Source of the DNA: a virus
Virus record (IMG/VR): IMGVR_UViG_3300027844_000463
Location: 1-41,755 of that record
Length of the DNA stretch: 41,755 nucleotides
Strand: one strand, 5' to 3'
The notes beneath the pieces are model-generated. The model worked only from the letters and a program-made list of their open reading frames with translations, made no database searches and had not been told where the DNA came from. Position numbers and translations under genes: made by a program. Below, piece by piece: positions 8,512 through 41,755 of this stretch; within the stretch, counting starts at the first letter, position 1; every line of letters starts with the position of its first letter.

Positions 8512-8774
8512 CAAAGCAAGAGTGGAGGAACGCCCTTGTTCGGGTGTGGGCCTACCGCCAGAACATCGGCTTCGAGGATGTCGTGCTGTTCGCAGGGATG
8601 GCGCTGATCACGGTCGCGCTCTGGCCGCTGGCGGAGCGCTGGTTCGGCGCCGGGCAGGTGGCATTCCTTCCCGCTGGTGGTATCCTTGTGTATATGGCTT
8701 TGCCTCAGCGGTTGGGGTTTTTCCATCGCGTGACGCTTCAGGGGCCACCGCAGGCGCCTAAGGGGAGAGGATAA
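8508..8774 (+). CDS. Small two-helix membrane protein
   Basis: An 88-residue protein in ATGA overlap with the large terminase. Two hydrophobic segments are visible (VVLFAGMALITVALWPL and VAFLPAGGILVYMALP), separated by a short polar loop. A gene of this kind between terminase and portal is seen in many siphoviruses, but its function is not known to me. Confidence 0.65.
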   Translation: MTKQEWRNALVRVWAYRQNIGFEDVVLFAGMALITVALWPLAERWFGAGQVAFLPAGGILVYMALPQRLGFFHRVTLQGPPQAPKGRG

Positions 8775-8776
8775 CC

Positions 8777-10060
8777 GTGAGCATCTTTGGCAGCATGGCT
8801 ACCACGAGCGTTAAGGCATCGAGCGACATGGACCGTTCGGGCTGGATGTATCAGAGCACACCCTATTTCCCCTCCGAGTGGAACACGATGCTGTCGGCGG
8901 CAGGATTCACGGTAACGCCTGAGGGAGCGATGGCGCTGTCGTCGTTCTACTCCGGCGTGACGATGATCGCGGCTGACCTCGCGGCATGCCCGTGGAACAC
9001 CTACGAGATGTACCCGGACGGCAAGGGCAAAGATCAGGTGCTCGGCGGATTAGGCATGTTCGGCGTGAAGGGGCTGGCGTATCGCCTGCGCTGGCAGCCG
9101 AATGACACACAGACCTCCATCGAGTTCTTCATGTCGATGGTGGCGCAATTTCTGTTGCGCGGAGTCGCCTACGCTGAAATCGTGTCAGGGCCACGGCTCG
9201 CTGCGAACGAGCAGTTCATCCCGCGCCATCCCGATCGTGTGACTCCTGAGCGCTTGCCGTCGGGACGCTTCCGTTACAAGCTACTGGAGTCGGACGGGCA
9301 GCCACGATACGTGACGCAGGAGGAAATGCTGGTTGTCCGCGACCTCTCGTTCGACAACGGTCTGACCTTCGCATCACGGACGCGGTTCGGCGCGGCGGCG
9401 CTCGGCTCTGCACTCGCGGCGCAGAAGGCTGCGATGAAGTTCTTCAAGTCGGGCATGACGGCAGGGACCGTGGCGACCTACGTTGGCGACATGGAGCCGG
9501 AGGACGAAGACAAGCTCCACGCGAGCATTTCCCGCTATGCCTCAGGCGTGGAGAATTCGTTCGGCCTGATGCTGATTCCGGATGATGTCAAGATCACGAA
9601 TCTGTCGGTGGACCCTGACAAGGCACAGATGATGCAGACGCAGGAGTGGGGCGTGAAGGATGTCGCCCGGCTGTTGCGAATTCCACCCTCGAAGCTCGGC
9701 GTAAAAGATGGGCAGTCCTACTCAACGGCGGTTCAGGAGGCGATCGATTACATCAATACGTGCCTCCGCCCGATCGCTGTGTCCTTCGAGCAGGCGTTTC
9801 AGAGGGATGTCATCATCCGGAAGTCTGAGTTCGTAGTGGAATGCGAGCTTGAGGCGCTGATGCGCGGTGACTTCGAGATGCAGGCGAAGTATTACGAGCT
9901 GTTCATCAAGAGCCGGATTATGCGACCGAGTGAGGTCCGTGTTCGCCTGAACATGAATCCCGATGAGGCTCTTGACGAATTGAGCGCCGGGGACATGCGC
10001 CCGGGGACTCCTGCCGGTTCGACTCCTCCAACGGAGACTGACGGCGTTGCGGATGACTAG
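8777..10060 (+). CDS. Portal protein (HK97 family)
   Basis: A 427-residue portal subunit, which forms the dodecameric ring at the head vertex. Family landmarks are GAMALSSFYSGVTMIAADLA (residues about 50-70), HPDRVTPERLPSGRFRY, the tunnel-loop/stem region GSALAAQKAAMKFFKSG, and the wing motif LLRIPPSKLGVKDGQSYS followed by YINTCLRPIAVSFEQA. GTG start with GGAGAGG six bases upstream. The acidic, Pro-rich C-terminus is probably disordered. Confidence 0.93.
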   Translation: MSIFGSMATTSVKASSDMDRSGWMYQSTPYFPSEWNTMLSAAGFTVTPEGAMALSSFYSGVTMIAADLAACPWNTYEMYPDGKGKDQVLGGLGMFGVKGLAYRLRWQPNDTQTSIEFFMSMVAQFLLRGVAYAEIVSGPRLAANEQFIPRHPDRVTPERLPSGRFRYKLLESDGQPRYVTQEEMLVVRDLSFDNGLTFASRTRFGAAALGSALAAQKAAMKFFKSGMTAGTVATYVGDMEPEDEDKLHASISRYASGVENSFGLMLIPDDVKITNLSVDPDKAQMMQTQEWGVKDVARLLRIPPSKLGVKDGQSYSTAVQEAIDYINTCLRPIAVSFEQAFQRDVIIRKSEFVVECELEALMRGDFEMQAKYYELFIKSRIMRPSEVRVRLNMNPDEALDELSAGDMRPGTPAGSTPPTETDGVADD

Positions 10061-30584: not shown

Positions 30585-30817
30585 GGAGTAAACCGCAGAG
30601 AAGACATCATTCGATGAAGATCGGTGGTCAGCGCAAGTCGAAATACGCTGACGACACAACGATCAGGATGGACTGCTTCGGCGGCTACGATGAGCACTCT
30701 GTCACCGAAGCGCTGCCTCGATTCGTTCCCTTCTCCGGAATGGACTCCCTTAACGGTCAGACCGGCCCTCACCTCTCACGATTCCTGCTGTTGCAAATAG
30801 TCGAAAATAACTCTTGA
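30581..30817 (+). CDS. Small basic hypothetical protein ending in promoter P3
   Basis: 78 residues: a basic N-terminus (RSKPQRRHHSMKIGGQRKSK) and a less charged end. Its last codons (LLQIVENNS) are read from the AT-rich block of P3 and the TGA stop lies inside the -35 box, so the C-terminus was probably set by the promoter cassette. Function unknown. Confidence 0.52.
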   Translation: MRSKPQRRHHSMKIGGQRKSKYADDTTIRMDCFGGYDEHSVTEALPRFVPFSGMDSLNGQTGPHLSRFLLLQIVENNS

Positions 30818-32424: not shown

Positions 32425-32814
32425 GAGACGACGACGACGGCCACAGCGAATCAGGGAGACACGCCAATGACCATCCAAGTTCGATTCGACTCGCTCGCTA
32501 TCCACACCGGCTTCATGGCAATCAACGGCCCACGGGAAGTGCAATACATCAAGGTCGGCGGTCGGCATGCCACGCCGGTCGGCGGCGTCGGAGTCGCGGC
32601 ATTCATGGGCGGCGAGATGGTCACACCGGAAGCGCCCGGCGTCGTCGGCTCGGCCACGAGCCCGGTCAATCTGGCTAAAGCGCTCGTATCGCAGACCGGC
32701 ACGGAGACTTGCTCGGCCTGCCTTCACACTATCGTCGCCGGGCTCCCGATGACGCAGAGCGGCAGCGGCGACTATTACCACATGACGGCTGACGACTGCG
32801 GGGCGGCTCGATGA
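32422..32814 (+). CDS. Early protein with dual in-frame starts, shares N-module with 31950 gene
   Basis: 130 residues from the leaderless ATG; an inner ATG at 32467 with GGGAG upstream gives 115. The leader peptide METTTTATANQGDTP is like those of three other genes. The N-terminal module RFDSLAIHTGFMAINGPREV, then YIKVGGRHA and GGVGVAAF, matches the 31950 gene. The C-terminus is different, with a CSACLH motif and H/D-rich end. Overlaps the ligase gene by ATGA. Function unknown. Confidence 0.68.
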   Translation: METTTTATANQGDTPMTIQVRFDSLAIHTGFMAINGPREVQYIKVGGRHATPVGGVGVAAFMGGEMVTPEAPGVVGSATSPVNLAKALVSQTGTETCSACLHTIVAGLPMTQSGSGDYYHMTADDCGAAR

Positions 32815-33899
32815 CACGGGAATTTCCCTCGAAGTCATCGAGCGCAATCCACACGATGACCTTCACGGCGGCAGGCGCGATTGACTGGTGCACTTGCCCG
32901 GCATGGCGGAATCAGAAGCCGAACAAGCCTCGCGACTGCCCACACGCCCGTCTCGTGCGAGCGGAGGGGCAGACGGGCCAGACATCGCCGGAGCCGGTGA
33001 AAGCCTCACAGGAGGCGAGCAGCGCAGCCGACGAGCCGGTTCGCGGCCTGCCTCCGGCGCCAATGCTCGCGTCTGCGATGACGACGCGGGTAGAGGGCGC
33101 CGAGTTTGACGCCACGTTCGCTCACGGCTGGACGATGGAGCAGAAGATGGACGGCCACCGGATTACGGTCGTCATCGAGGGCGCGGATGTGTGGGCCTAC
33201 GCTCGTCCACGGGGCGACAAGCCACCGACATCGGTGCAGATGCCCGGCATGATGATCGAAGCGCTTCAGGCGCTCGGCACTGGCGTCTACGACGGCGAGT
33301 TCGTCACGCCGGGCGGAATTTCGAGCGACGTATCGCGGGTGCTGGCGGCGATTCGGAACGGGCAGTCGGACGGCTCGGATCTGATGTTCATCGCTTGGGA
33401 TGTCGTCTCACTCGATGGCGCCTCCGTCGCCTGCTCCTACGGCACACGGCGGCGTGAGATGCTGCTGGACCGGCTGCGCCGTCTCCCGGCAGGCCAGCGC
33501 AGCGTGTCCACGGTCGAGTCAGTCACGCCGACATGGGCCGCGATCGAGGAAATCTGGCGGCAGGGCGGTGAGGGCGCGATTCTGAAGCGTTCGGCGGCGA
33601 CGTATCAGGCCGGGCGCCGGTCACCGGACTGGCTGAAGGTGAAAGAGGAAGGCGCGGCGGTCGGCAGAATCACCGGATTCAAGCCGGGATCGTTCGGGCC
33701 ACACTCGGTCACTTGCCTCACGCTGGAGAGCGGTATCGAGACGACGGTGAAGACGAAGAACAAGGCCACGCTGGCTGACATCGCGAAGGACGAAACGCGC
33801 TACATCGGCGCACGGCTGGTGATCTCCCACAAAGGACTGTTGAAGGGCGGCAAGCCGCGACACCCTGTTTTTGATCATCTAGCAGGAGAGGGGGAGTAA
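32811..33899 (+). CDS. ATP-dependent DNA ligase with N-terminal SWIM-like zinc motif
   Basis: 362 residues. Nucleotidyltransferase motifs are in order: I EQKMDGHR with catalytic Lys112, III/IIIa VYDGEFVTPGG and MFIAWDVVSLDG, IV EGAILKR, V PDWLKVKEE; an OB-fold region follows (GRITGFKPGSFGPHSVTCLT). Residues 27-45 carry C-x-C...C-x-H (C27, C29, C43, H45), a SWIM-type zinc motif not part of the minimal ligase, joined by a Pro/Ser/Glu-rich linker (residues about 52-82). Seals nicks in phage DNA replication or repair. Confidence 0.9.
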   Translation: MTREFPSKSSSAIHTMTFTAAGAIDWCTCPAWRNQKPNKPRDCPHARLVRAEGQTGQTSPEPVKASQEASSAADEPVRGLPPAPMLASAMTTRVEGAEFDATFAHGWTMEQKMDGHRITVVIEGADVWAYARPRGDKPPTSVQMPGMMIEALQALGTGVYDGEFVTPGGISSDVSRVLAAIRNGQSDGSDLMFIAWDVVSLDGASVACSYGTRRREMLLDRLRRLPAGQRSVSTVESVTPTWAAIEEIWRQGGEGAILKRSAATYQAGRRSPDWLKVKEEGAAVGRITGFKPGSFGPHSVTCLTLESGIETTVKTKNKATLADIAKDETRYIGARLVISHKGLLKGGKPRHPVFDHLAGEGE

Positions 33900-35729: not shown

Positions 35730-35974
35730 ACCGATACGCAGCGACGGGCCGTTCGGATCAAGAGGTGCAGCGAACCTTCTCCTCCAAGCGCGAGGCGAAC
35801 GACTACGCGAGCCGTGTGAGATTTCAAGGTGGCCGGGTGCTGATTCACGACTTGCAGACCGGGGTGATTATCCGCGACACCGGGAAGCCGCACGGGCAGG
35901 TATGGGCCTTCCCGTCTCGGAAGGGTGAGCCGTCACCTTTACCGAAAATAGTTCTTGACTCTCACCTGGTTTGA
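35726..35974 (+). CDS. Hypothetical protein ending in promoter P7
   Basis: 82 residues. The body (FSSKREANDYASRVRFQGGR, VLIHDLQTGVII) looks like a small alpha/beta fold. The last ten codons (PKIVLDSHLV) are encoded by promoter P7 and the TGA stop lies in its palindrome. ATGA overlap with the previous gene. Function unknown. Confidence 0.58.
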   Translation: MNRYAATGRSDQEVQRTFSSKREANDYASRVRFQGGRVLIHDLQTGVIIRDTGKPHGQVWAFPSRKGEPSPLPKIVLDSHLV

Positions 35975-35993
35975 TATTATCATTCTGGACATG
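35955..35993 (+). promoter_or_regulatory. Early promoter P7, leaderless
   Basis: TTGACT, 17-base spacer, TATCAT (35978-35983), palindrome TTGATATTATCAT (35971-35983), ATG seven bases after the -10. Lies inside the end of the upstream gene. Confidence 0.85.
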
Positions 35994-36211: not shown

Positions 36212-37729
36212 ATGACGACGAAAACGACCACGGTGAGCGGCATGGTGAAGGCATTCAAGGCGGCACGGCGCTGCTCTTGCCCGATCGTCGCGATCGAGAC
36301 TCCGGACCCGGCAGCCACGATCGATGAGATTGTGGCCGTCGTCAAGGGCGCGGCGGTCGCGCAATGGGATCTGGTGCGAGGGCTGCGCGGTGTCAACAAG
36401 GCGGCACAGTCGGCGCTTGTAGATGTCAACCCGGATGCGACGGTGAGCCCGGTGGAGGCGCTGGCGGCGCTGGCTGGCAAGGCGCCGGAGGATAGCGTCA
36501 CCTTCATGATGAACGCGCACCATCATCTTGCGGACCCGGGGGTGGCGCAGGCGGTGTGGAACCTCCGCGATGAGTTCAAGGGCAACGGGCGGATGCTGGT
36601 CTTGCTTGGTCCGGCCTTCCAACTTCCCTCCGAACTGGCTGGCGATGTCGTCGTGCTTGACGAGCCGCTGCCGACACGCGATGACCTGAGCGCGATCGTC
36701 ACGAAGCAATACGAAAACGGCGAGGTCGCGCAACCGGATGACTCCACGCGGTCGGCGGCGCTCGATGCGCTGGTGGGCCTACCGTATTTCACGGCGGAAC
36801 AGGTCGTCGCGATGTCGCTGACACCTACCGGGGTGGATGTCGATGCGCTGTGGGATCGCAAGCGAAAGGCGATCGAGAACACCGAAGGGCTGCGGGTGTG
36901 GCGAGCGCAGCCGGGCGACACGACGCTGGACGAGCTTCACGGCATCGATAACGTGATTGGCTTCCTGCGGCGCCTGATTGCCGCGAACGCCTTCGGGGCG
37001 ATTGTCTTCATCGATGAGGGTGACAAGGCGTTCGCCGGGGGGATGTCAGACCACACCGGCGACTCGGGGGTGAGCAAAGATCAGGTGGGAACGGTCCTGT
37101 CCTACGTCGAGGATACGAAGTCACTCGGGGTGCTGCTGGCAGGCATGACGGGCGCCGGAAAAACACAGCTTGCGAAGGCGGTGGGGCAGGCGTCAGGCAA
37201 GCCACTCATCATGTTCGATATGGCAGGCATGAAGGGCGGGACGGTCGGTGAGAGCGAACGGGCGATTCGGGCGGCGCTGAAGGTCGTCACGGCTACCGCT
37301 GAGGGCCGGGTGCTTTTCATCATGACCGCGAACAAGACCACGCAGTTCTCGCCGGAGCTTAACCGGCGCTTCCCTGACCAATTCTTTTTCGACACGCTGA
37401 GTGAAGAGGGGCGCGAAGCCTGCTGGACCGTCTACGCGGGAAAGTGCAAGCTGACACCGCTTCAGGCGTCACGGCCCACGGGATTCGATGAGGGCTGGAC
37501 GGGCGCTGAAATCAAACGGGCCTGCGAACGGGCGGCGCTTTTCAACCAGACAATCGAGGAGGCGGCACGATACATCGTCCCGGCGGCTGTCTCGGCGAAG
37601 GCCACGATAGACAACCTGCGGCGCGAAGCTGCCGGGCGCTTCCTCTCGGCGAGTGACCCGGGGCTGTATCAACCGGCGGTCGCGGACTCACCGGCGGAAG
37701 CCACGCGGAAGTTCAGGACGGAGGACTGA
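36212..37729 (+). CDS. AAA+ ATPase (Ycf46-like) with Walker B before Walker A
   Basis: 505 residues. The N-terminal 230 residues resemble the Ycf46-type regulatory region (SVTFMMNAHHHLADPGVAQA, LLGPAFQLPSELAGDVVVLD, EPLP). The ATPase core is rearranged: AIVFIDEGDKAFAG (263-276), a Walker B-type segment, comes before Walker A GMTGAGKT (311-318). GESERAIRAAL (346-356) then leads straight to the sensor-1-like RVLFIMTANKT (366-376), the arginine-finger region PELNRRFPDQFFF, and a helical lid (GWTGAEIKRACERA). In ordinary AAA+ proteins Walker B lies between GESE and sensor 1. AGGAGG precedes the ATG. Role unknown. Confidence 0.85.
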   Translation: MTTKTTTVSGMVKAFKAARRCSCPIVAIETPDPAATIDEIVAVVKGAAVAQWDLVRGLRGVNKAAQSALVDVNPDATVSPVEALAALAGKAPEDSVTFMMNAHHHLADPGVAQAVWNLRDEFKGNGRMLVLLGPAFQLPSELAGDVVVLDEPLPTRDDLSAIVTKQYENGEVAQPDDSTRSAALDALVGLPYFTAEQVVAMSLTPTGVDVDALWDRKRKAIENTEGLRVWRAQPGDTTLDELHGIDNVIGFLRRLIAANAFGAIVFIDEGDKAFAGGMSDHTGDSGVSKDQVGTVLSYVEDTKSLGVLLAGMTGAGKTQLAKAVGQASGKPLIMFDMAGMKGGTVGESERAIRAALKVVTATAEGRVLFIMTANKTTQFSPELNRRFPDQFFFDTLSEEGREACWTVYAGKCKLTPLQASRPTGFDEGWTGAEIKRACERAALFNQTIEEAARYIVPAAVSAKATIDNLRREAAGRFLSASDPGLYQPAVADSPAEATRKFRTED

Positions 37730-37926
37730 TGGAAATCAAGTCACGGAGGGGGTTCGACGCGGCGGTATATCGGCAGACCGAACTTGAGGATAGCGTGGAC
37801 GGCGATGTGGATGCGCTGTCGGCTGAAGAACAAGTGGAATTCGAGGCGATCGGGGATGCGATTATCGCGTGGGAAGACAAGTGCGAAGAACGCGGCGGCA
37901 AACTGAACCGCTACGGGGGCGACTGA
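37729..37926 (+). CDS. Small acidic hypothetical protein
   Basis: 65 residues, acidic (LEDSVDGDVDALSAEEQVEF), TGATG overlaps on both sides between the AAA+ and SWIM genes. Function unknown; may work with its neighbours. Confidence 0.58.
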   Translation: MEIKSRRGFDAAVYRQTELEDSVDGDVDALSAEEQVEFEAIGDAIIAWEDKCEERGGKLNRYGGD

Positions 37927-38339
37927 TGGCAAGCGCAACGGCGATTCGGCAGGGATGGGCAGATCACACCGAACTGACACCTTCGGACGGTGGGAAGTCG
38001 TGGATGGTGCAGAAGAACGTCAACGGGGCGTTCCGCTGCTCCTGCCCGGCCTACATCTTCAGCAAGGCACCGAAGGGGTGCAAGCATGTCGCCCGGGTGA
38101 AGTATCTGGAGGAGGAGAACAGGACACTTGAGCCCTACGTTGAGGAGGCATCGAGCATCCTCACGGAGATGCTTCAGCATGTCGGACTAAACCGTTCAGA
38201 GTTCGTCGGCCCGGAGTTGCGAAACCAGATGGGCGCGGTGCTTGCGCTTCGGCTTCAGGCGCTCAGCACGATCGCGGTCACGGTCGCTTCGCCGACGGCT
38301 GCCACACGCGGGGTGCGGAAGATTCGGTTCGATGACTGA
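37926..38339 (+). CDS. SWIM zinc-finger protein
   Basis: 137 residues. RCSCPAYIFSKAPKGCKHV has the C-x-C-x(n)-C-x-H pattern of SWIM (C38, C40, C52, H54). The rest is helical (NRTLEPYVEEASSILTEMLQ). SWIM motifs bind DNA or proteins. A related motif is fused to the ligase in this window. TGATG overlap with the previous gene. Confidence 0.72.
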   Translation: MASATAIRQGWADHTELTPSDGGKSWMVQKNVNGAFRCSCPAYIFSKAPKGCKHVARVKYLEEENRTLEPYVEEASSILTEMLQHVGLNRSEFVGPELRNQMGAVLALRLQALSTIAVTVASPTAATRGVRKIRFDD

Positions 38340-38766
38340 ATTCACGAGAACGGCCTGCTCGTGTCCGGCCTGCGTTGAATGCTGCCAGCGGCAGCCCGGG
38401 CCACTGGCGCCGGGCGACATGGAGAAAATCGCGGAGTGGGTAGGGCAGCCGGTAAACGAGGTCATGCAATACTTTTGGGCATCGCCCGGTGCGCTCGTGC
38501 AGGATGTCGAGACGGGACGGCGCCGGATGATTCCAACGATCACGCCGAAGATAGAGGCCCATGGCTGCACGTTCCTTGTCGATAACCGCTGCGTGATTCA
38601 TCCTGTCGCGCCGTTCGGCTGTTCGAAGTTCGACACGCACCAGCGCCCGGCAGAGTATGTCCCACGGGCAGCCTTCCTGTATCGGAGCATCGAGGACAGC
38701 GACGTGTATGCACGGCAGCGGGGCATGCTGCCACCTGCTACGAGTTGGAAACCGAGAGGGCGGTAA
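38332..38766 (+). CDS. CxxCxxCC protein (YkgJ-like zinc/iron-chelating domain)
   Basis: 144 residues. CSCPACVECCQ near residue 9 contains C-x-x-C-x-x-C-C; later GCTFLVDNRCVIHPVAPFGC and SKFD complete the usual YkgJ/UPF0153 pattern of Cys and His. Metal binding, possibly an iron-sulfur or zinc cluster, is expected. It starts inside the SWIM gene, overlapping by eight bases. Biological role unknown. Confidence 0.75.
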   Translation: MTEFTRTACSCPACVECCQRQPGPLAPGDMEKIAEWVGQPVNEVMQYFWASPGALVQDVETGRRRMIPTITPKIEAHGCTFLVDNRCVIHPVAPFGCSKFDTHQRPAEYVPRAAFLYRSIEDSDVYARQRGMLPPATSWKPRGR

Positions 38767-39891: not shown

Positions 39892-40221
39892 AATAAGACG
39901 ACGACAGAACAGCACGACGATTTCCGCGATGTCCCGCATGTCGCGAGTGTCATCCTTCATCAACTCGGCGGTCGGCGCTTCCGGAGGATGACCGGCGCGA
40001 AAACCTTCGTCGGGCAACAGAATGACGACGGGACCGGCTGGCTGCGCTTCCGGCTCCCGAAGCCACGGTGCATCATTCAGGTCACGCTTACGGCCATGGA
40101 TACCTACATCGTGAGGAGGCTGGCGCTGAACGGACAGGAACGGAAGGTCTGCGAAGATGTCTACGCGGACAATCTCGAAGCGGTTTTCACCGGCATGACC
40201 GGACTTTACACGAGGCTTTAA
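39889..40221 (+). CDS. Hypothetical early protein, leaderless start
   Basis: 110 residues. LGGRRFRRMTGAKTFVG and FTGMTGLYTRL at the end match a small family I have seen in phages and integrative elements, of unknown function. Shares an operon with the DUF1257-like and DUF2997-like genes. Confidence 0.65.
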   Translation: MNKTTTEQHDDFRDVPHVASVILHQLGGRRFRRMTGAKTFVGQQNDDGTGWLRFRLPKPRCIIQVTLTAMDTYIVRRLALNGQERKVCEDVYADNLEAVFTGMTGLYTRL

Positions 40222-40223
40222 CC

Positions 40224-40676
40224 ATGTCACACGTAGCAGCGGTATCACTCTACGTCACGGACCTCGATGCGCTCGAAGCGGTCGCGGACCGTCTCGGCTT
40301 CAAACTGATGCGCGGCCAGAAAACTTGGGCGTGGTATGGCCGGGCGGTCGGTGAGAGCGAAGCGGCGGCACAGGGCCACTCGGCGAAGGACTTCGGCAAG
40401 GGCGTTCACGCGCTTCGACTGAAGGATCACGGTCCCGGCGATTACGAGATCGGACTGGTGGCCCGGCTGGACGGCAAGCCGGGGTTCGAACTGCTCCACG
40501 ACTCATGGGGTATGCACGGGCGGAAGCTGACGGCTGCCGCTGGTGCCGGGCTCGGGACGCTCAAACGCGAACTGGCGGCGGAGGTATCCACGCGGATCTT
40601 GCAGCGACAGGGCTATCGAGTCTCACGGATTATTCAGCCGGACGGCGGCATCAAACTTCGAGGTGCACGAGCATGA
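40224..40676 (+). CDS. DUF1257 (Ycf35)-like protein
   Basis: 150 residues. It starts MSHVAAVSLYVTDLDALEAV, then DRLGFKL, a GHSAKDFGKGVHALRL block, GDYEIGLVARLDGKPGFELL, and an end rich in helices with YRVSRIIQPDGGIKLRG. This is the layout of DUF1257/Ycf35: MSHxS..., L...L..LG, GDYE and a final basic strand. In bacteria and plastids such proteins accompany Ycf46-type AAA+ ATPases, and one is encoded about 2.5 kb upstream here. CGAGG lies eight bases before the ATG. Function unknown. Confidence 0.68.
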   Translation: MSHVAAVSLYVTDLDALEAVADRLGFKLMRGQKTWAWYGRAVGESEAAAQGHSAKDFGKGVHALRLKDHGPGDYEIGLVARLDGKPGFELLHDSWGMHGRKLTAAAGAGLGTLKRELAAEVSTRILQRQGYRVSRIIQPDGGIKLRGARA

Positions 40677-40858
40677 AGGAAATCACCGTCAACATTTCGG
40701 AAGCTGGCGATGTGGAGGTATCCACGAAGGGGTTCGCTGGCAAAGCCTGTCAGGACGCCACGAAGCAGCTAGAGGCGGCGCTAGGCGCCACGACAGCGGA
40801 CACGCCGACTGCTGAGATGATGAAGCGCAACACGGCTCACCTGAGGGCAGGACAGTGA
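40673..40858 (+). CDS. DUF2997-like small protein
   Basis: 61 residues: KEITVNISEAGDVEVSTKGF, AGKACQDATKQLEAALG, then a polar end. This follows the DUF2997 pattern (strand, D-G-x-V, GF.G..C..AT..LE..LG). ATGA overlap with the DUF1257-like gene. Such proteins occur beside DUF1257 and AAA+ genes. The conserved Cys may be important. Function unknown. Confidence 0.7.
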   Translation: MKEITVNISEAGDVEVSTKGFAGKACQDATKQLEAALGATTADTPTAEMMKRNTAHLRAGQ

Positions 40859-41115
40859 CCCACGATGTCATCATCTCGCCCACCGGTGAGATCAGCTTCA
40901 TTTATGCCGATGGGCTGGCGGCGCTGGTGGATGCGGGAGAAGGGACGATCACCCGGGCGAGCCACGTCGAACCGGCTTCGGCGTATGGGCTGTCTGGCAC
41001 CGGATGGGTGGCCGATATGGCGCCAAGCGCGGGGCCGCTGCTAGGGCCGTTCGAGACACGCGGGGAAGCGCTCACCGCTGAGGTCGCATGGCTTCAAGAG
41101 AATCGGGGGCTCTGA
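40855..41115 (+). CDS. Hypothetical protein following DUF2997-like gene
   Basis: 86 residues (IISPTGEISFIYADGLAALV, SHVEP, GWVADM, LLGPFETRGEALTAEVAWLQ). The last segment matches small phage/plasmid proteins of unknown function. GTGA overlap with the DUF2997-like gene. Likely in the same functional operon. Confidence 0.62.
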   Translation: MTHDVIISPTGEISFIYADGLAALVDAGEGTITRASHVEPASAYGLSGTGWVADMAPSAGPLLGPFETRGEALTAEVAWLQENRGL

Positions 41116-41541: not shown

Positions 41542-41574
41542 TAAATCGATGCGGCAATCACGCCGCGAGGGCTA

Positions 41575-41755
41575 ATGAAGATGACGACGACAAACGCAGC
41601 GGAGCAGGGGAACCTTATCGCGACCAAAACGATTTGCCTGTGTTTGGAGCGCGGGAAGTTCGGGAACAGCAAAAAGGCGGGGCTGAGCGCGGTCACGGTG
41701 CGAGCGGACAAGACTCGGCTTCGGATGTCGAAGCAGTTGATTGATTCGCCGGAGC
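41575..41755 (+). CDS. Partial early protein, cut by window end
   Basis: 60 codons visible, no stop before the edge. Begins MKMTTTNAAEQGNLIATKTI, showing the Thr-rich start seen in the dual-start genes, then LERGKFGNSKKAGLSAVTVR and DKTRLRMSKQLIDSPE. GAGG lies four bases before the ATG. I cannot assign a family from this fragment. Confidence 0.6.
   Translation, partial: MKMTTTNAAEQGNLIATKTICLCLERGKFGNSKKAGLSAVTVRADKTRLRMSKQLIDSPE

Follow-up and report, generated by a model that had tools for sequence, protein, structure and literature searches.

A predicted Ycf46-like AAA+ ATPase family of phages in which the Walker B block precedes the Walker A block

To our knowledge, AAA+ proteins are taken to have their motifs in one unvarying order, with Walker A first, Walker B next and sensor 1 after both. 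What kind of protein, then, is encoded by a gene in which Walker B comes first? The question is raised by a locus in a metagenomic virus record (IMG/VR IMGVR_UViG_3300027844_000463), of which the whole stretch of 41,755 nucleotides was analysed and is called the window here. An earlier note, made from the letters alone, had claimed that FIDEGDKAFAG and the segment DSG...GTVLSYVED stand ahead of GMTGAGKT within one frame, and had read this as an internal transposition in a Ycf46-type AAA+ ATPase. The motif order was confirmed, since the ATPase ORF is a single uninterrupted ATG-to-stop frame of 505 amino acids, and the positions and residue numbers given for it were correct (window position 36998 is ATPase residue 263). 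The transposition is supported as well, as piecewise alignment to phage homologues, Pfam AAA and p97/Cdc48 indicates that two adjacent blocks were exchanged. We take the name Ycf46 for the phage ATPase from BFVD labels. The features of the locus are listed in Table 1.

Table 1. Features of the ATPase locus in window coordinates
Feature	Position	Strand	Remark
Promoter-like element copy (TTGAC ... TATTATCAT)	35936..35985	+	~230 bp upstream of the ATPase gene
Predicted permuted Ycf46-like tandem AAA+ ATPase	36212..37729	+	505 aa
N-terminal region, residues ~10-228	36239..36895	+	colinear with normal-order phage homologues
Moved block B, residues 260-304: Walker B strand, D268/E269, following helix	36989..37123	+	
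Block A, residues 305-364: beta1, Walker A (G311-T318, K317), alpha1, beta2, VGES loop, alpha2	37124..37303	+	
Block C, residues 366-460: sensor-1 strand (N374), Box VII Arg (R386), lid (WTGAEI)	37307..37591	+	
ORF homologous to the L044 ORF that matches DUF1257 (Ycf35)	40026..40673	+	transitive assignment; just before DUF2997
DUF2997 domain (PF11211)	40682..40819	+	52.9 bits
Small conserved protein of the DUF2997 gene group	40816..41112	+	stop-to-stop frame; cluster in 42/93 loci

In the window protein, residues 260-304 (AFGAIVFIDEGDKAFAGG...DSGVSKDQVGTVLSYVEDTKS) form the Walker B block (FIDE...GTVLSYVED), and residues 305-364 (LGVLLAGMTGAGKT...VGESERAIRAALKVV) form the Walker A block (GMTGAGKT...VGES), which is placed after it. 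D268 and E269 of Walker B sit within AIVFIDEGDKAFAGG; the DSG...GTVLSYVED helix comes next after the FIDE strand and is followed by the P-loop GVLLAGMTGAGKT with K317. GESE occupies residues 346-349, the sensor-1 strand reads VLFIMTAN, and sensor 1, the Box VII arginine finger and the lid are in their normal positions after the swapped blocks. The earlier note had seen no hydrophobic-DE motif between GESE and sensor 1, and inspection by eye agreed for the window protein and for the 24 relatives covering this stretch. Upstream of the swap, residues 7-252 match the phrog_8638 profile over positions 17-286, and no P-loop was seen by eye in the N-terminal region. With Pfam AAA, the window protein was matched over residues 307-370 only, and profile positions 1-54 match at 37130-37291. 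Because Walker A, Walker B and sensor 1 do not follow one another in the usual colinear order, the ATPase is, on its sequence, classed as a permuted derivative of the classic AAA and Ycf46-like proteins rather than as a standard member.

Normal block orders were found only in the named phage records fetched as comparison (N-A-B-C in six, A-B-C in two and A-B in one, where N is the N-terminal domain). An archaeal virus protein showed block A alone with the block HMMs, yet was contiguous by Pfam AAA. When the window protein was compared by phmmer with the first four normal phage homologues, its residues ~303-363 matched ahead of ~260-304 in three; the fourth, L007, gave only the A piece plus another that was very weak, and with the isolate phage Tunturi_3 protein as query it gave the A piece ahead of B. 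The spacing of the two Walker motifs, counted from B to A, gave the same separation: it is -59 residues in 8/8 normal-order phage homologues measured, where Walker B comes second, whereas in the permuted family it is +39 to +51 residues in 95 of 97 proteins, the remaining two ending before block C and being absent from the measure. Pfam AAA, run on 50 permuted records, placed a middle piece (profile ~37-106) upstream of the start (~1-63) in the ATPase frame in 28, a count read off the match table with the middle piece below threshold in the other 22; three of the records (G018, G045 and G006) showed three pieces in the order middle, start, end. The same profile was contiguous (~1-130) in the ATPases of 10/10 normal-order virus records. 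A profile of the permuted core, searched against Cdc48, returned A (76-128), B (32-78) and C (136-214) in both D1 and D2, with the B pieces weak alone (8.6 and 10.7 bits; one alignment viewed). By eye, Box VII of the permuted proteins appears two residues shorter than its normal-order counterpart, and the permuted protein lacks the segment joining alpha0 to beta1 in the normal-order homologues.

The swapped order extends far beyond this record. Two other IMG/VR contigs with different metagenome ids encode a protein identical to the window ATPase, and the ATPase of Tunturi_3, gp103, has the same block order at 35.5% identity to the window protein. Scans with the window protein, a two-sequence alignment or the Tunturi_3 protein returned just the two identical-protein contigs or no match. 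A DNA pattern for an N-domain signature, which is blind to block order, gave 27 stretches, all encoding relatives, of which 25 span the swapped blocks and are colinear with the window protein. The profile scan by N-domain patterns gave 136 relatives, 80 of which were kept, and the scan of genome contigs gave 16 loci, 13 of them real (L129-L131 were dropped as PilT-like false positives). Over all loci, the block HMMs assigned the order N-B-A-C to 120 ORFs and N-B-A to two that are truncated; three fragments (L016, L035 and the N half of L126) held too little sequence for block order to be read. Since these 122 ORFs count some contigs more than once, the search for same-order relatives that the earlier note had proposed came to 97 distinct proteins: 83 from viral contigs, the window's own included, 13 from contigs of metagenome-assembled genomes (MAGs) and one from an isolate phage. 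They fall into 76 clusters when grouped at 70% identity and into 17 at 50%, and are mostly 33-65% identical over the best segment. The MAG titles name Acidobacteria (Bryobacterales, Acidobacteriaceae), Deltaproteobacteria, Nitrospirales/Nitrospira, Phycisphaerae and Bacteroidetes, and at one MAG locus (L119) phage-type replication genes and an excisionase flank the ATPase. None of the fetched relatives that came through the N-domain signature and were long enough to judge had the normal order. As read from these sequences, the swapped order is clade-wide.

The catalytic residues were conserved in spite of the exchange. In Walker A, G311, G314 and K317 are invariant in 97/97 permuted proteins and S/T318 is present in all 97; in the hhhhDE of Walker B, E269 is found in 97/97 and D268 in 94, with Glu in the other three. 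Sensor-1 N374 and Box VII R386 are present in the 95/95 proteins that have letters there. An oddity is the position of the second P-loop Gly (residue 316), where 47 proteins have Gly, 33 have Ala and 17 have Ser. These residues predict that the permuted domain is catalytically competent, while ATPase activity should not be assumed because 50 of the 97 proteins have Ala or Ser at that Gly.

Structure prediction gave a full-length model that had a pLDDT of 86.6 and aligned over p97 D1-D2 with Z 18.9, 6.5 Å and 414 residues. The AlphaFold2 model of the core (residues 225-486, 76 sequences) had a pLDDT of 94.0 and a pTM of 0.90, with strands at 263-267, 305-311, 332-335, 367-373 and 389-393 and with the lid helices present. 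Its best 50 matches to solved structures were AAA domains of Vps4, p97/Cdc48, spastin, fidgetin-like and related proteins (Z 15.5-17.5, 2.4-3.1 Å, 198-211 of 262 residues); the unaligned residues are about as many as block B holds. Foldseek gave query-normalised TM scores of 0.37-0.57 for the best 50 matches of the core, low as expected because an order-bound aligner meets a swapped chain.

In the normal AAA+ sheet, of order 5-1-4-3-2, beta2 and beta4 flank the Walker B strand. Mean-field couplings from 94 sequences (Neff 63) ranked beta2 (331-336) first and beta4 (367-372) second among 162 six-residue windows as partners of the moved strand, with beta1 at rank 93 and beta5 at rank 124; the signal is weak (mean z ~0.47), and moving the beta4 window by a single residue lowers it to rank 16. 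The helix that follows the moved strand had its top coupling with 335-350, the end of beta2 and the loop ahead of alpha2. Shuffling block B among the sequences gave -0.51 (sd 0.10, 20 shuffles) against 0.38 observed, and we regard the window ranking as the better evidence because shuffling also erases relatedness. By elimination, too, beta2 and the moved strand are probably neighbours, as beta2 requires a strand beside it and no other remains. The weak covariation, the confident model and the invariant Walker B Glu together point to the moved strand lying between beta2 and beta4, where Walker B normally sits.

Several other explanations were weighed. As the window is a metagenomic virus record, its order could in principle come from an assembly, sequencing or annotation error in one record, but the same order is found in an isolate phage, in IMG/VR contigs from many metagenomes and in MAG contigs, and the distance from Walker B to Walker A hardly varies. 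The identical protein in two contigs, the order in Tunturi_3 and the 97 distinct proteins rule out chance and artefact; an error confined to one record is so improbable as to be negligible, and a lone oddity was rejected in the same way, as independent records share the order. That the swap arose more than once, so that the permuted proteins are convergent, draws some support from the tree of block A alone, in which the permuted/normal split was not recovered. Against this, the concatenated tree of A, B and C, built on 95 permuted and 8 normal proteins, set the two groups apart at support 1.0, the single-block trees of C and B gave the same split at 0.94 and 0.71, and the tree of the N domain, which is untouched by the swap, gave it at 0.963 on a long branch. 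The N domain and the concatenation thus give one split, though versus only 8 normal proteins, and with the near-constant spacing they make repeated origin very unlikely; on these sequence comparisons one swap event is most likely.

The early FIDE might also be an extra acidic strand lying outside the Walker B position, with another acid serving as catalytic base. Block B, however, matches the Walker B block of the normal homologues and, weakly, that of Cdc48 D1 and D2, the stretch from VGES to sensor 1 offers by eye no hydrophobic-DE in its place, E269 is invariant, and the moved strand couples most with beta2 and beta4. A spurious acidic motif was rejected on the invariant E269, the block B match and the beta2/beta4 coupling, and we judge the extra-strand explanation highly improbable. 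With its order permuted, the domain might still be a degenerate pseudo-ATPase that serves as a scaffold without hydrolysing ATP; the Ala or Ser at the second P-loop Gly in 50/97 proteins speaks for it, and the invariance of K317 and E269, and of N374 and R386 wherever letters are present, speaks against it, which leaves such a loss of hydrolysis unlikely.

The preferred reading is a permuted AAA+ domain, and its gene neighbourhood often resembles that of the normal form. Neighbouring ORFs were grouped by single linkage. Of the 93 permuted loci, 54 carry the DUF2997 cluster, and all 59 of its ORFs share the strand of the ATPase, at a median of 1,092 bp downstream; the count for the cluster holding DUF1257 (84/93 loci) was left unused because it had merged with another family. 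In the Pfam search of 50 permuted records, DUF2997 was matched in 29 and DUF1257 in 24 at E<=0.01 (23 and 18 over the cut-off, respectively), and a direct Pfam search of the window for DUF1257 gave no match. In Tunturi_3, DUF2997 and DUF1257 lie directly downstream of the ATPase. Among nine normal-order bacteriophage records, DUF2997 was present in six (HJ05, RHph_I4 and SM1 among them) and DUF1257 in four, downstream of the ATPase and on its strand, with DUF2997 at 1.2-2.0 kb where carried; Wildflower, DLP_3 and Javan368 had a match to neither. No normal-order Ycf46-like paralogue was found in the fetched flanks of the permuted loci. Several permuted records have other contiguous AAA genes by Pfam AAA, and the one near the ATPase in L050 is not a Ycf46-like homologue by phmmer at E 1e-3. 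From the shared DUF2997/DUF1257 gene group, the permuted ATPase therefore appears often to replace the normal one there. Our best guess for the function is protein remodelling by a ring ATPase with DUF1257/DUF2997 partners. Cyanobacterial and plastid Ycf46, with Ycf35 (DUF1257) and DUF2997, has gene partners like those of many permuted loci; DUF2997, DUF1257 (ycf35) and fed7 are clustered in Synechocystis (PMC4284462).

Other features were observed around these ATPase genes. Seven promoter-like copies (TTGAC, a spacer and TATTATCAT) start at 30795, 31895, 32367, 35148, 35936, 38766 and 39101 on the + strand, in the right-hand part of the window, and the element translates as a false peptide like FDIIILDM that opens several ORFs. 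The small protein at 37827-38336 (+) and, at its N-terminus, the ATP-dependent DNA ligase at 32793-33896 (+) each show by eye a C-x-C...C-x-H pattern resembling a SWIM zinc finger, for which Pfam gave no match in either protein. The ORF at 38326-38763 (+) encodes a CxxCxxCC putative zinc- or iron-chelating protein (PF03692). At 41545-41754 (+), cut by the window end, lies the start of an ORF matching L003 8612-9646, which is near the ATPase there and annotated as HNH endonuclease, and also an ORF of L124. In L117, a 308-aa protein near the ATPase (8648-9571) is weakly DUF3150-like (20.7 bits, below cut-off) and is resembled by ORFs of L118, L122 and L128; a radical-SAM activase-like ORF by eye (L052 6889-7440) belongs to a cluster present in 11/93 loci.

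The proposed protein would be a tandem AAA+ ATPase of Ycf46-like phage ancestry in which two adjacent blocks of the C-terminal catalytic domain were exchanged. Its chain would run beta3(Walker B)-alpha3-beta1(Walker A)-alpha1-beta2-alpha2-beta4(sensor 1)-alpha4-beta5-lid and would fold into the usual sheet with the moved strand in the Walker B slot, the rewired connections being alpha0 to beta3, alpha3 to beta1 and alpha2 to beta4. The three cuts would each fall at a strand start, all on the same edge of the sheet; two connections shift by one strand and one by two, and handedness would be kept because every crossover keeps its direction, an argument from AAA+ topology. The protein may bind and hydrolyse ATP in a ring, as normal AAA proteins do, and its job would be that of the normal-order Ycf46-like ATPases beside DUF1257/DUF2997 genes. 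The likely and simplest origin would be one tandem duplication of the A-B region with later loss of the outer copies; among the ORFs of the examined loci, no intermediate with two copies of a block was found. We consider it quite probable that these proteins form a large, diverged phage AAA+ clade with a non-cyclically permuted core, in which a unit of Walker B and pore loop 2 comes before the P-loop and the unit of P-loop, beta2 and alpha2 leads straight into sensor 1. The account as a whole, a Ycf46-like permuted AAA+ protein with the usual sheet, ATP hydrolysis in a ring and the job of the normal form, is very probably right; block order, conservation and residues are read from sequence, and we infer the rest.

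Compared with known systems, the normal-order Ycf46-like phage ATPases (phrog_8638; Wildflower gp97, HJ05 and Javan368; RHph_I4 and SM1) have the N-terminal region, catalytic motifs and lid as here, but are arranged A-B-C, whereas the permuted family is B-A-C. The core fold resembles p97/Cdc48, Vps4 and spastin, and p97 is also a tandem-domain protein; these differ in motif order, and the N-terminal domain of the window ATPase lacks a visible P-loop. In circularly permuted GTPases the permutation runs end to end, whereas here an internal block of the AAA+ core was exchanged and the N domain, sensor 1 and lid are unmoved; this type was rejected for the window ATPase, as N domain, linker, sensor 1 and lid hold their places. 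RbgA/YlqF and YloQ are named as circularly permuted GTPases (PMC6912228) and, being P-loop NTPases with changed motif order, are the nearest precedent found. That the order might belong to an already catalogued AAA+ clade found no support in open papers or in Pfam, PHROGs and NCBIfam matches. Searches of open-access papers on permuted AAA+/P-loop proteins, Ycf46, DUF1257 and Tunturiibacter turned up no description of a permuted AAA+ core, subscription papers being mostly outside their scope, and this absence is weak evidence.

The swap matters since colinear domain models depend on a fixed order, and Pfam AAA covers the window protein only in part; structure predictors and aligners, too, find in this family a natural case on which to be tested. 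A very common protein machine appears to work when rewired, because many phage relatives keep both the order and the catalytic residues, which suggests that complex motor cores can be permuted non-cyclically and that such a form can become fixed and diversify. Being conserved in a different order, the family is a test of which chain connections couple ATP hydrolysis to the pore loops, and, if the reading is true, it would be a natural experiment showing that AAA+ mechanochemistry can dispense with the usual chain order. The Ycf46/Ycf35/DUF2997 genes of cyanobacteria and plastids, which are unexplained, would also gain a link to phage motors.
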